This document shows positions 5,839-30,924 of a stretch of 64,000 bases of DNA, piece by piece. Each line of letters opens with the position of its first letter. Position 1 is the first letter of the stretch. This DNA comes from Anaerocaecibacter muris (GTDB taxonomy: Bacteria; Bacillota; Clostridia; Christensenellales; Pumilibacteraceae), in NCBI RefSeq assembly GCF_943192945.1, contig NZ_CALPCE010000001.1:124001-188000 (forward strand), in the 5' to 3' direction. The notes beneath the pieces are model-generated. The model saw nothing but the letters and a program-made list of their open reading frames with translations, did no database searches and was not told the origin of the DNA. The position numbers and the translations under genes are program-made.

Positions 5839-5867
5839 TTGACATTAGGGGGGTGGGGGTATATTAT
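5839..5867 (+). promoter_or_regulatory. Promoter for the 25-kb AAA/surface-protein operon
   Basis: TTGACA (5839-5844), a 17-bp spacer containing a G-run, and TATTAT (5862-5867). Transcription would start near 5874, about 24 nt before the ATG at 5898. This is the only strong sigma-A-type promoter I see before the eight-gene run, whose gaps are all under 90 nt. Confidence 0.7.
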
Positions 5868-5897
5868 AATATAGACGGTGCGGACAAGGGAGTAGAT

Positions 5898-6596
5898 ATG
5901 GCAGTTTGGATTGTGGCGTTAATAGCGATAGCGGCGGCGTTTGTGACGTTGTCGGGTTTCGTGTTGCCGCGACTGCTGTTTTACACCAAGTACGACGTAA
6001 ACGGGTCGAGCGACCGAGGTATCAAAAAAGTGGACGACGAAGGAAGCGTCGTTTTCGAGCCGTCGCCCGAAGTGAAAAAGTTTATAAGCGGGTACGCGCT
6101 GTCCGTGCGCGACGGCAAGCGCGTGCTTGTTTGCAAGCTCGCCCAAAAATTAGCGTACATAGATTACGACGTTATCGTTTTCGATAAAGACGATAAAGTT
6201 TTGCGCGTGTTCAATATTAAAGAGAACGTTACGGACGGCGAGTATACGCGGGTCGTGGAACTGCCCGACGTTACCGAATACGTTTCGCTTATGATAAACG
6301 AAGCGGACGGGCAAACGTTTAAGCATAAAGTCGTAAAAAACGTTTCGGCGGGACGGGTGTGCGCGTTTATCGCATGCACGGCGGCGTTGATAGCGGCGGC
6401 GGTTTTCGGCATTAAAATTTGTTGTGCGTACCTGTTTGCGGGTTTGTTCCGCGAAAGTTTTATCGTGCTCGGCAAAAGCAATACGGTCACTGCGATAATC
6501 GCGGCGATAGCTGTTGTAATAGATATTATATTTACGGTAATTGCGTTTGCCGTCAGGCGCGCGACGACAAAGGGCGGGAAGTATGGCGGACGTTAA
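5898..6596 (+). CDS. Small membrane protein, first gene of the AAA/surface-protein operon
   Basis: 232 residues from the ATG at 5898, preferred over an upstream in-frame TTG because GGGAG lies just before it and the promoter sits at 5839-5867. There is one hydrophobic segment at the N-terminus (MAVWIVALIAIAAAF onward), a polar region of about 120 residues, and two more hydrophobic segments near residues 155-222, ending in the basic tail RRATTKGGKYGGR. The positive-inside rule suggests the polar domain is cytoplasmic. That domain (DGKRVLVCKL...VIVFDKDDKVLRVF...LPDVTEYVSLMI) resembles in layout the cytoplasmic head of the next protein (DGRKYLVPRF...VCITQYAADGAEL). No known family recognised. 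Overlaps the next gene by 14 nt, suggesting translational coupling. Confidence 0.75.
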   Translation: MAVWIVALIAIAAAFVTLSGFVLPRLLFYTKYDVNGSSDRGIKKVDDEGSVVFEPSPEVKKFISGYALSVRDGKRVLVCKLAQKLAYIDYDVIVFDKDDKVLRVFNIKENVTDGEYTRVVELPDVTEYVSLMINEADGQTFKHKVVKNVSAGRVCAFIACTAALIAAAVFGIKICCAYLFAGLFRESFIVLGKSNTVTAIIAAIAVVIDIIFTVIAFAVRRATTKGGKYGGR

Positions 6597-30300: not shown

Positions 30301-30859
30301 GCACGTCAACTTGCCCGTCCTTAACAGGGCATACGACGGCACGCCGCTTCGGTTCGAGGAGCTGTTGCCCGATATTTACGGTTATTACTGGGACGAGTTG
30401 CCGCAGGGCGTTGCCGACGTTGTTATCGACATGGGCGAGTACGAGGGCTTTACGGACGTCGGCAAGATAACGGCGGGCGAGCTGTCGCGGCTGTTTGAGG
30501 ACATGGGTTGGTGCCATGTTTACGCCGCCGACGGTACGGACGTGACGCAGTCGTATACGGTCGTGTTCGATTCGGGCGGACTGGAAATTACGCAGCGCGA
30601 AATAAATATAGTGACCGGTAGCGCCGACAAGATTTTCGACGGCACGCCGCTGACCTGCCACGAAATACTTATGCCGATAGGCGGCGCGGGGCTTGTGGAC
30701 GGTCACGAAATACAAATAGAGTTTACGGGCGCGATTACCGATATTGGCGTTGCCAACAACAGCGTTAAAAGCGTTAAGATAACAAACGGCGACGGAATTG
30801 CCGTGACCGCAAACTATAAAATTTCAGTAACTTACGGCAAGCTGGAAATAAAGCCGTAA
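24302..30859 (+). CDS. Giant MBG/YDG-repeat protein with transglutaminase-like domain
   Basis: 2185 residues; start ATG 24302 with GGAGGAGG upstream. Same plan as the preceding protein but longer: a basic N-terminus, a membrane helix (about 24-43, ILIIVIVALLLATVAALLG), about 15 MBG/YDG repeats (motifs such as HEYDGAKF, HVYDGNKY, WIYDGEEH), a Gly/Asp linker, a transglutaminase-like domain with Cys1816 (GVCRHYATA), His1856 (GHGWTEVY) and Glu1872 (WVAVEVTGSG), a second Gly/Asp linker, and about three terminal repeats. Individual repeats are diverged, so the array is old. The repeats probably form a rod extending the catalytic domain away from the membrane. Last gene of the operon; a terminator follows at 30877. 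Confidence 0.85.
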   Translation: MLYAEYNKKMKKVAAFVNVLRRFKILIIVIVALLLATVAALLGTRGIVYDSVKCPPQIVYGESVEYKAGAFLGNVVYEYREDGSDVWTREMPRRAGKYVVRAVSERTFGAMSYGKTYAFEILPKPLDLNVAATVVYGEKPQVTAELVYGDSISIGRFEYADISQTSTLVNVAADSVVITDENGEDVTSSYALNAVKSNIAFTARAIEITVEGVTEEYDGKPLTSSAWELTDGTLADGDSIVPVFDKSQTDIGETENTPQINVTHKVLNGDGIDVSANYAITQNIGKLTVKKRTVVITTADGTHEYDGAKFSEYGYTVSDETPIAEGERLEIALAASLTDVDKAENLMVFKAFAADGREVTHNYAFVVSAGTIEVTPRIINVRAANGTHVYDGNKYVNKNYTVTGQTTVLGHKLVVSSCSEITNVGTEINVLGFDVVAADGKTDVGKNYNVVCESGTLEVTPKTVTVVTATDNGIIYDGKDHFNDSFTSDGLVGDHSLKVVSHTVVNDVVFGDDGSVIGTPNSLGFEVVGTLESNYSLEITRGVLTVNKRAVTIETPSESHVYDGTEKHTADPFVVQTSPNPIADGQSIFVVKRAGLTDVNSCDNAIEFEIVVNAVWDKIQQGIYTYDELVELYKEFQQGIIEYDKIDEIIKTKNYDITIDVGTLTVTKRPVTFTAGDCEKEYDGAPLVNTAADNFTADRGENVGLANGQKADATFVGSLTDAGEQKINEISSVVIYKTDDATKTPLNDNYDITLVKGSLKVTPRKVYVTTESDEWVYDGGVHSNKEFSVTRLLTELGHSLKVKTFTEVSEVKRGANNAVLTEPNELTFDVVGTLASNYEILYAKDGKGALKIKPRPIIVKTATNTKVYDGKEFIDRRFDIVLGTLVGGQSARVLNYNTVLIKNIGSVINVMDVIIENATKQNVTHNYDITYQNGTLTVTAREVTVKTNANSWVYNDVERFDKGYTVTSALDFVAGQTVTVAEYETITDVGKKENVLKLTVADEQGKNVTSNYKLTYVYQDIEVTARPVTVKAKDITRVYNGKVVAGDVYELTAGSLADGHSGAATLNAEYINVGKYSSVTVVKLDIFDGKKTEKTSNYAITYSGVAATLTITARPITLSSFGTEDDERFYCDTYWYYDGTPKSFKAFGFLYERDDDGNPHPDKGLIFEYDAEIGAYTALHNLVGDSDSWSTITDAGECENRFTAKITDKAGKDVTANYQITYEYGTLIVLPRPVKIVTASEEFVYNGDPQYNETWSEKSDSLGFVFDHTLKVTTHTEITNVAEGTVDNVLTFDIINAENGEVKAKSQNYDITVEYGELVVLPRQLDVVTNSNEWTYDGNAHHDDGWDYAENSLKPVKDHRLIVAGYIEVKDVMRDELGNVVGKENVLQFEITGADASNYQINAVNGTLTILPVDIVVRTEDLEKIYDDTPLNGGAAEVSGFLFGHRVLLKNLEVAITDVAQSGTVNLAEVDCIKDAQDNDVTDNYDITYILGKLTIQPRYIKILTATDEWIYDGEEHYNDGCEVTDGSLVDGHNLIVTQHTVIKNVGKKDNELVVSVRKGEFVKTPNYAIEFEKGTLTVVKKSGGGSGDGDGDGDGPIIRLYSETDGAVYLRQMSYGDYTGKVGANRFDEYNWGDAPVYSGQKINYNGKDYGLNYLTSIALQNSGLTADSIEIELLVDYTYSLPYYLALADLERQTSDGEYSSSVTRYSAQFYRYDYLSDGGAILSSSNIGIYDRVEADYRKFVYEHYTSVPQATLDYMLGVIQKQRFRKDDPDVITKVSKYVRTAARYDLDYDVALDAEDDVAVAFLEKYKTGVCRHYATAATVLYRALGFPARYTVGFKGATKAGQWTEISDGHGWTEVYIDGIGWVAVEVTGSGQGGSGGDGDGDGDGDGNGGGGEGGDSDKEKLSIRPVEVSREYNGLALLAKNEVEDAGVDYAFKKLIELGYTYIVEVEGSRVEVGRSESVIKAFRLFDPSGEDVTGKYNIVFEKGVIWVTQKPVHVNLPVLNRAYDGTPLRFEELLPDIYGYYWDELPQGVADVVIDMGEYEGFTDVGKITAGELSRLFEDMGWCHVYAADGTDVTQSYTVVFDSGGLEITQREINIVTGSADKIFDGTPLTCHEILMPIGGAGLVDGHEIQIEFTGAITDIGVANNSVKSVKITNGDGIAVTANYKISVTYGKLEIKP
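29948..29977 (+). repeat. In-frame GGCGAC hexanucleotide repeat, five units
   Basis: Five perfect tandem GGCGAC units encode Gly-Asp pairs in the linker after the transglutaminase-like domain. Length changes here would stay in frame and only alter linker length. A shorter, imperfect version lies at about 29062-29090. Confidence 0.9.
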
Positions 30860-30876
30860 GCGGTTTACAAACAACT

Positions 30877-30924
30877 ACCCGTTGCGCTCGGCGGTAATGT
30901 CGCGGCGCGGCGGGTTTTGTTTTG
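30877..30924 (+). terminator. Rho-independent terminator after the AAA/surface-protein operon
   Basis: Arms ACCCGTTGCGC (30877-30887) and GCGCGGCGGGT (30905-30915) pair over 11 bp with two G-U pairs, followed by the T-rich tail TTTGTTTTG. It lies 18 nt after the stop of the 2185-residue protein gene. Confidence 0.7.

Follow-up and report, generated by a model that had tools for sequence, protein, structure and literature searches.

A predicted operon of Anaerocaecibacter muris that combines two membrane-anchored McrB-like NTPases and a DUF2357 protein with long surface proteins

The known role of McrBC is that of a defence pair that cuts DNA, and MoxR-type systems have AAA+ genes beside transglutaminase-like membrane proteins. 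A relation of DUF2357 to McrB is already known, and systems built on the two are described by Bell et al. 2024 (PMC11090510). In CoCoPALM, an NxD McrB homologue with an FtsB-like transmembrane (TM) and coiled-coil region is accompanied by an McrC homologue with coiled coils and by signal-peptidase proteins thought to serve pilus assembly, and CoCoNuTs in which the McrC nuclease is missing or likely inactive always adjoin HEPN or other nucleases (PMC11090510). Here we describe eight genes, P1 to P8, located on the plus strand of a 64,000-nt stretch of Anaerocaecibacter muris DNA (contig NZ_CALPCE010000001.1, positions 124,001 to 188,000; this whole stretch is called the window). They code for two McrB-like motors, a DUF2357 protein, a pseudo-enzyme, two further membrane proteins and two long surface proteins, and we put at roughly 0.4 the probability that they form a membrane-bound, NTP-driven machine acting on the anchors of the two long surface proteins. 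Genes were called with a simple open reading frame (ORF) chooser, TM helices were predicted from hydropathy, and the features are the following.

5839..5867, plus strand: promoter-like site TTGACA-17-TATTAT, 11 of 12 consensus matches
5898..6596, plus strand: P1, small membrane protein with three predicted TM helices; same cluster in 37 of 72 stretches
6583..12639, plus strand: P2, an N-terminal domain without leucine-rich repeats (LRR), one TM helix, then a BspA-type LRR domain (LRR_5, 1.8e-210)
12647..15808, plus strand: P3, Pfam Glyco_hydro_3_C and Fn3-like
12647..14641, plus strand: P3 residues 1-665, GH3 fold (Foldseek 5.4e-37), catalytic Asp replaced by Glu
14855..15808, plus strand: P3 residues 737-1053, a dead AAA relative of the operon's motors (match to P4 residues 305-473, E 9.8e-13, 28% identity)
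15820..17208, plus strand: P4 (AAA1), McrB-like AAA+ NTPase (AAA_5) with one N-terminal TM helix, Walker A, DEMN and NNDD
16112..17211, plus strand: copy 1 of a 1,100-bp direct repeat (motor domain), 1084 of 1100 positions identical to 19877-20976
17292..19598, plus strand: P5, DUF2357/McrC-like core, then a helix of ~210 residues (Pfam DUF2357; AlphaFold model; match to McrC 6ut7_G)
19591..20973, plus strand: P6 (AAA2), same motor domain as P4 on a different anchor (AAA_5; two TM helices)
19877..20976, plus strand: copy 2 of the 1,100-bp direct repeat, 1084 of 1100 positions identical to copy 1
21055..24321, plus strand: P7, surface protein with N-terminal TM anchor (TM at residue 21) and repeats; Transglut_core 2.8e-23 at ~23083-23385
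24302..30859, plus strand: P8, 2185-residue surface protein with N-terminal stub and TM helix and ~86-residue repeats; Transglut_core 1.5e-19 at ~29609-29917
30877..30915, plus strand: intrinsic terminator, long stem then T-rich sequence (71 nt folded, -32.4 kcal/mol, z -3.27)

Comparison with described systems

CoCoPALM shares with the window set a TM-bearing McrB-like NTPase, whose motif in the window set can be read as NxD followed by D but also as NxxD, and an McrC homologue with a coiled coil. The window set differs from it in having two motors and not one, the protein with dead AAA and pseudo-GH3 parts, P1 and P2, and in carrying long surface proteins where CoCoPALM has signal peptidases and pilus factors; Pfam named no S26 or S24 peptidase in the eight window proteins. 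A search of the window's order with P5 matched 28 of 151 genomes, and the other loci found were often CoCoPALM-like, with motors ~41-52% identical to those of the window set; in an unrooted tree of selected loci the two kinds of motor fall into separate groups of one family. Among 25 further stretches that are not of type A (the type, by DUF2357 protein similarity, of nearly all loci scored below), an AAA gene adjoins the DUF2357 gene in 19, the AAA of L042 being incomplete with no TM helix visible, and no blastp hit to P7 or P8 was found in any of the 25. In six CoCoPALM-like loci, two of ten neighbouring proteins had an S26 peptidase match above the cut-off and three of ten below it. Small TM proteins, some with S26 matches, were seen at the CoCoPALM-like loci L034, L036, L038-L040, L049-L053, L055, L056 and L058-L063. 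An earlier note on this DNA, made from the sequence alone, had known of no described system with this gene set. We likewise recognised no description of the eight genes together in the open-access literature, but the core is shared with CoCoPALM, which is a described but little-studied relative of it. We would class the window set with CoCoPALM as its relative, the core being similar and the outfit different.

With CoCoNuTs the operon has in common an McrB family with a possible NxD motif, DUF2357 with coiled coils and an McrC that often has no active nuclease. It is unlike them in that its motors are membrane-anchored and no adjoining nuclease is named, Pfam having found neither HEPN nor any other nuclease among the eight window proteins and nine flanking ones (relatives were not scanned). 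E. coli McrBC shares the AAA+ motor family, by a weak profile match, and the DUF2357 partner, whereas TM anchors, a second motor and the absence of any named nuclease family in P5 set the window set apart. Unlike the MoxR-DUF58-transglutaminase clusters to which the earlier note had referred, the window motor has its PDB match in McrB, and Pfam found no DUF58 among the eight proteins of the operon or the nine that flank it.

Conservation and distribution of the gene row

The proposal that eight same-strand, nearly touching genes run from a promoter-like site to a strong terminator was borne out for P1 to P8 (5839-30915), three adjacent pairs overlapping, two gaps measuring 7-11 nt and two 81-83 nt. 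The site at 5839-5867 is the top scorer of 12 promoter-like sites in 4500-18000, a number at the level of shuffles (12 vs 10.7). The consensus scan found no promoter-like site in either of the larger gaps, 17209-17291 and 20974-21054, and weak plus-strand sites (9/12) lie at 16950-16979 and 20715-20744, ~310 nt upstream of P5 and P7. The GC content of the operon (0.522) is near that of its flanks (0.538 and 0.523).

Relatives were collected by scanning a genome contig collection (84,980 species) with a DUF2357 alignment of six loci, and the best 80 of 146 were used. By title they are metagenome-type assemblies; the titles among these best 80 were mostly uncultured Clostridia and Clostridiales, with some Bacilli, Bacillales, Acholeplasmatales, Anaeroplasma, Anaeroplasmataceae, Oscillospiraceae bins, Candidatus Borkfalkia and Candidatus Gallimonas. 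ORFs were clustered over 72 stretches, made up of the 66 of the 80 with at least 8 kb (the 14 under 8 kb were omitted), five loci obtained earlier and the window. Gene positions were then scored in 69 loci, window included, L044 and L045 being dropped as duplicates of L101 and L133, and L110 going unscored with no DUF2357 ORF kept. Except for the window and L046-L048, the scored loci were chosen by the DUF2357 alignment and are thus of type A by DUF2357 protein similarity; their neighbours were not selected.

Members of the AAA or GH3 clusters were present in all 72 stretches, and DUF2357 in 71; 68 had surface proteins and 37 had P1, and P2 was split over two clusters of 17 and 16 loci. An AAA gene stands before the DUF2357 gene in 66 of 69 loci and another after it in 67 of 69, after which the first surface gene is in place in 64 of 66 loci and the second in 59 of 60; upstream, the GH3/dead AAA gene is in place in 51 of 65. 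At the latter position L111 and L131 have an AAA-cluster protein (654 and 469 residues) that lacks Walker A, NNDD and the GH3 fusion, and L122 and L138 have unlabelled members of the AAA cluster. Owing to a drift of the P1 profile (42, 68 and 81 hits), we do not count the positions of P1 and P2 (34/53 and 39/60) as evidence. A chance grouping of the genes was ruled out, since the same order recurs over the 69 scored loci, and the co-occurrence test set in the earlier note did not refute its reading of the genes as a membrane machine. L131, L122 and L138, which also carry the set, have the titles of Anaeroplasmataceae, Acholeplasmatales and Bacilli bins. In the first two of these groups the named members are not known to have a cell wall, and wall-less groups among the carriers would matter for surface-anchoring models.

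Close relatives are rare: at E<=1e-50 the only match among 398 genomes sampled from the phylum was the window's own, and at E<=1e-10 matches were found in 18 of 391 genomes from the class. The DUF2357 profile matched 6 of 41 family genomes; the two neighbourhoods inspected, those of the window genome and of G546, both hold AAA-DUF2357-AAA together with surface genes. In G535, a genome of the same genus with no match to the DUF2357 profile, LeuRS-P1-P2-P3 are found in L172 (C11, 1-15000), and the contig stops ~340 nt after P3, near the expected start of the repeated motor segment. Absence from fragmented assemblies is therefore unreliable, and the patchy distribution is not claimed as proof of horizontal transfer. 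In G547, also of the same genus, different genes stand behind LeuRS; a 951-residue ORF resembling the LRR part of P2 (L170, 9251-12106) lies near the LeuRS site without the operon. The viral contig collection gave 82 pattern matches, none confirmed as a relative, and the plasmid collection a single weak match, to a DUF2357 protein of Rhodoferax; on these results a phage or plasmid element was rejected.

In the window genome (1.97 Mb, 12 contigs) P5 was matched once, and the motor had three matches, all inside the operon. Genes for AlaRS and LeuRS lie upstream of the operon, and genes for an M1-type peptidase, an amidase, LemA and DUF2207 downstream. The AlaRS gene (window 1467-3245) codes for only 592 residues; the short form seems real for the genus because G535 has a 91% identical AlaRS stretch of 554 residues, which reaches the contig end.

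The motors, the McrC-like protein and the pseudo-enzyme

The presence of two membrane-anchored McrB-type ATPases, already proposed in the earlier note, is supported by AAA_5, by the McrB profile match and by the TM helices. Walker A, DE[MLVI]N and NNDD are intact in 131 of 134 AAA-cluster ORFs above 350 residues (GH3 fusions excluded), and the NNDD motif, readable as NxD then D or as NxxD, aligns gap-free to E. coli McrB. Ahead of the motor, one TM helix is predicted in 62 of 64 AAA1 proteins and a pair of them in 63 of 66 AAA2 proteins. Neither P4 nor P6 had a methylcytosine-binding domain named in it. The window's P4 and P6 genes have a segment of 1,100 bp in common, with 1084 identities, that extends through the stop codon and three further bases, and the motor proteins differ by one residue. 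The motor domains, as a rule of 336 residues, reach 98% identity or more in 29 of 61 two-motor loci and are fully identical in 20 of these; five other loci are at 80-83% identity and 27 below 80% (L047, L126 and L140 were skipped, and L067 was compared over 96 columns only). The anchors, that is, the N-terminal parts, are only 21-46% identical in the 29 loci.

Motor sequences differ between species, also where they are near-identical within a locus. A quick, unrooted tree was built of 51 motors from 26 chosen loci and 16 motors from CoCoPALM-like loci, in which the CoCoPALM-like motors form one group (Shimodaira-Hasegawa-like approximate likelihood ratio test, SH-aLRT, 100) apart from the window-type motors. 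The latter pair by locus in 15 of the 25 loci having both, and one group of 20 rows (98) divides into AAA1 and AAA2 clades. The shared DNA segment was examined in 28 loci: it begins 199-317 nt upstream of Walker A and ends 0-6 nt after the stop codon in 24 loci and 22-58 nt after it in four, with the P4/P6 differences often clustered at the 3' end or patchy. Such segment limits and differences are what conversion would leave, and repeated gene conversion is the likeliest cause of the near-identical motors. An assembly artefact was ruled out by the DNA differences found in 16 of the 29 loci, the window among them. The other 13 are without any core DNA difference, and since an assembler could merge nearly identical copies, the near-identity stands but exact identity in these 13 does not. 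Codon changes were counted to see whether selection may favour identical motor proteins beyond what conversion and ordinary constraint would give: summed over the 29 loci, there are 266 silent and 15 amino-acid codon changes between the motors. For two pairs of loci, which were picked after the data were seen, L069 had 56 silent and 1 amino-acid codon changes within the locus versus 133 and 21 against L074 (Fisher p 0.010), and L089 and L097 jointly had 85 and 1 within versus 86 and 4 between (p 0.37).

The 1,100-bp direct repeats flank the DUF2357 gene, and recombination of the motors could delete it, giving phase variation with the deletion as a switch-off. Among 13 contigs under 4 kb, seven are self-closing, with end overlaps of 141 bp in five and of 86 and 34 bp in two more. 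Those with an identical 141-bp overlap (L068, L080, L085, L090 and L095) are 3.2-3.8 kb long and carry DUF2357 and motor sequence. Self-closing contigs are as expected of either an excised circle or an assembly loop over two near-identical copies, the loop in the assembly graph yielding the same contigs. Motors less than 80% identical, as in 27 of the 61 loci, should moreover recombine poorly, and we regard such a switch as very improbable.

P5 had been noted as a coiled-coil partner; a long helix (364-577) is predicted, but the protein itself is McrC-like, residues 79-184 matching DUF2357. Its AlphaFold model, built with 69 sequences, has a mean predicted local distance difference test score (pLDDT) of 73.6 and a predicted template modelling score (pTM) of 0.47. 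In this model the core is confident apart from the parts at 76-92 and 103-124, where confidence is low; a long beta hairpin spans 162-189, and the helix of ~210 residues is followed by a second helix and a disordered tail. The best match of the globular part is the McrC chain 6ut7_G (Z 7.4, root-mean-square deviation (rmsd) 3.3, 100 residues aligned), which we take as supportive only, because McrC stands at rank 2 of a list in which many rows are long helices and Z lies below the caution line of 8. Pfam gave no nuclease family for P5 at E<=0.1, and the residues after 364 are helices and disorder in the model. Judged from its sequence, P5 is an McrC-type (DUF2357) protein without a recognised nuclease and with a predicted long coiled coil in the nuclease's place. 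The proposal of McrBC-like parts is supported by the McrB profile match, the DUF2357 of P5 and the McrC structural match. McrC inserts a stalk into McrB (PMC11090510), and the modelled hairpin 162-189 is a candidate counterpart of that stalk.

The fusion of a dead AAA to a GH3-like fold in P3 was confirmed for both parts, with the addition that the catalytic Asp of the GH3 part is mostly lost. Residues 1-665 are modelled as a full-length GH3 structure (pLDDT 88.4) matching 9lql_A with Z 36.4, rmsd 3.4, 597 residues aligned and 28% identity. The GH3 nucleophile column, from the alignment to 7ms2, has Glu in 24 of 50 sequences, Asp in 5 and another residue in 21, with Glu in the window; the loss is incomplete because these five keep Asp. 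The catalytic nucleophile Asp of GH3 enzymes lies in an SDW motif, and SD[WYFH] occurs within the first 320 residues of one of 50 P3 relatives; the segment around the acid/base position is gapped in 31-33 of 50. The Walker A pattern is absent from the dead AAA in 49 of 50, its single occurrence being probably chance. Two hydropathy peaks were present in 30 of 50 P3 relatives and four in 15; in five relatives inspected, peaks fall between the GH3 and AAA parts, a segment that the window P3 does not have. Both parts of P3 are probably cytosolic, since no signal peptide is evident by eye.

Surface proteins and a possible membrane machine

Many P2 relatives stop after the TM helix, and the N-terminal domain with its TM helix stands alone in other loci; P1 had no Pfam match above the cut-off. 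In the P7/P8 cluster, 93 of 95 complete surface ORFs have an N-terminal TM helix and none of the 95 a C-terminal one, and a C-terminal LPXTG was found in 0 of 131 surface ORFs, those cut by contig ends included. The N-terminal stub, TM helix and first domain of the second surface protein share a consensus over 60 loci, the N-terminus of the first surface protein being less conserved, and it is this conservation that makes the N-terminal region of the second a plausible handle for a machine. The make-up of the surface proteins varies among loci (LRR or not, transglutaminase or not). A transglutaminase-like domain, detected with a model built here, is present in 37 of 131 surface ORFs, in 29 of 66 loci and in 16 of the 30 loci with both genes complete. 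As these domains are optional, cross-linking, put forward in the earlier note, is weakened as a general function. The MBG label that it gave to the P7/P8 repeats was not confirmed, no MBG family being found in Pfam at E<=0.1 or in NCBIfam (P7, and P8 residues 1-851); the repeat profile gave no significant PDB match (best E 0.076).

The surface proteins could also point to a narrower role in export or assembly, in which pilus- or S-layer-like biogenesis would replace the signal peptidase and pilin parts of CoCoPALM and the motors would drive secretion or polymerisation. CoCoPALM-like loci of the same order do have a TM motor and DUF2357, some of them beside S26-matching proteins, and long repeat proteins occupy the place after the core in the window set. 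However, ordinary N-terminal TM anchors could presumably be handled by Sec, none of the operon's proteins was assigned to a peptidase or pilin family and the sortase motif is missing from all 131 ORFs, so that this role appears unlikely.

We tentatively prefer the membrane-bound, NTP-driven machine, the operon and the topology of its products suggesting a control of surface fibres. P4 and P6 would form one mixed ring beneath the membrane, for which their motor halves would be kept interchangeable. P5 would enter the ring and stimulate it, as McrC does McrB. Its coiled coil, together with the dead AAA of P3, for which a regulatory role may be envisaged, would connect the ring with P1 and P2, its partners in the membrane, and likewise with P7 and P8 through their TM helices and cytosolic stubs. 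NTP hydrolysis would then place, cluster, extend or release the fibres, and the pseudo-GH3 would be a cytosolic binding or scaffold module with no enzyme role. A bolder version is that of a new envelope machine, in which a mixed ring of homogenised motors on different anchors, with a nuclease-free McrC as its activator and a dead AAA/glycosidase subunit attached, drives the long surface fibres from inside the cell. A restriction-type GTPase pair would thereby have become a mechanical surface organelle, with gene conversion keeping its subunits interchangeable; we hold this version to be doubtful.

Several points weigh against a machine acting on the surface proteins. The ring, its stoichiometry, the contact of P5 with it and the contact with the surface proteins are all inferred, and a conserved neighbourhood is no proof of physical interaction. 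The core family match is weak, E. coli McrB, the sole PDB match of the ATPase profile at E<=0.01, having an E of 0.0059. The DUF2357 match of P5 (24.7 bits vs a cut-off of 23.3) lies only 1.4 bits over, and the McrC match is modest, Foldseek with the P5 model giving no match at E<=0.001. Motors below 80% identity in 27 of 61 loci indicate that identity is not needed everywhere. The motor also matches the candidate-defence model PDC-M26A at 1.5e-50, and P5 residues 210-294 match DpdB, far under the cut-off (21.9 bits of 300), the PADLOC model giving 5.8e-5.

These last two matches would suit a membrane-anchored anti-phage defence of the CoCoNuT/CoCoPALM kind, with the surface and LRR proteins as sensors or receptors and the McrBC-like machine as effector or relay. 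Type IV restriction and CoCoNuTs are built around McrB with DUF2357 (PMC11090510), and the distribution within the family (6 of 41 genomes) looks patchy, though absences in fragmented assemblies are unreliable. Against a defence role, Pfam named no nuclease or killing domain in the eight proteins (relatives were not scanned), unlike what the source describes for CoCoNuTs with inactive McrC; no relative was confirmed in viral contigs and the one plasmid match is weak; and several of the genes are unlike effectors. We consider defence a main rival reading and an improbable one.

The transcription signals also weigh against our preferred machine. Promoter-like sites exceed shuffles in 17100-31300 (21 vs 10.5, standard deviation 3.4; 9 of the 21 on the plus strand), as do terminator-like sites (37 vs 25.3, standard deviation 5.4), and two promoter-like sites scoring 10/12 lie within P8; all of these speak against a single transcript. 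Internal promoters, if strong, were the second ground on which the earlier note would have given up its reading, and the promoter-like excess may bear on it. Codon or repeat composition may be the cause of both excesses. The internal promoter-like sites would be in line with two functional units in one row, an McrBC-like module and one of adhesins, inherited together and perhaps expressed together with no physical interaction, as would the variable LRR and transglutaminase make-up of the surface proteins and the LRR protein near LeuRS in G547. The order and adjacency kept over diverged loci and the conserved N-terminal region of the second surface protein argue against such a separation, which we find quite improbable.

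If the machine acting on the surface-protein anchors is real, the tasks of the McrB motor family would extend to mechanical or regulatory ones at the cell envelope. The gut-bacterial operon would then have kept motor and activator, dropped the nuclease, put the motors in the membrane and coupled them to giant surface proteins. Its near-identical motor halves on different anchors, alike locus by locus in diverged species, offer a natural test of selection for subunit interchangeability in an AAA+ ring.

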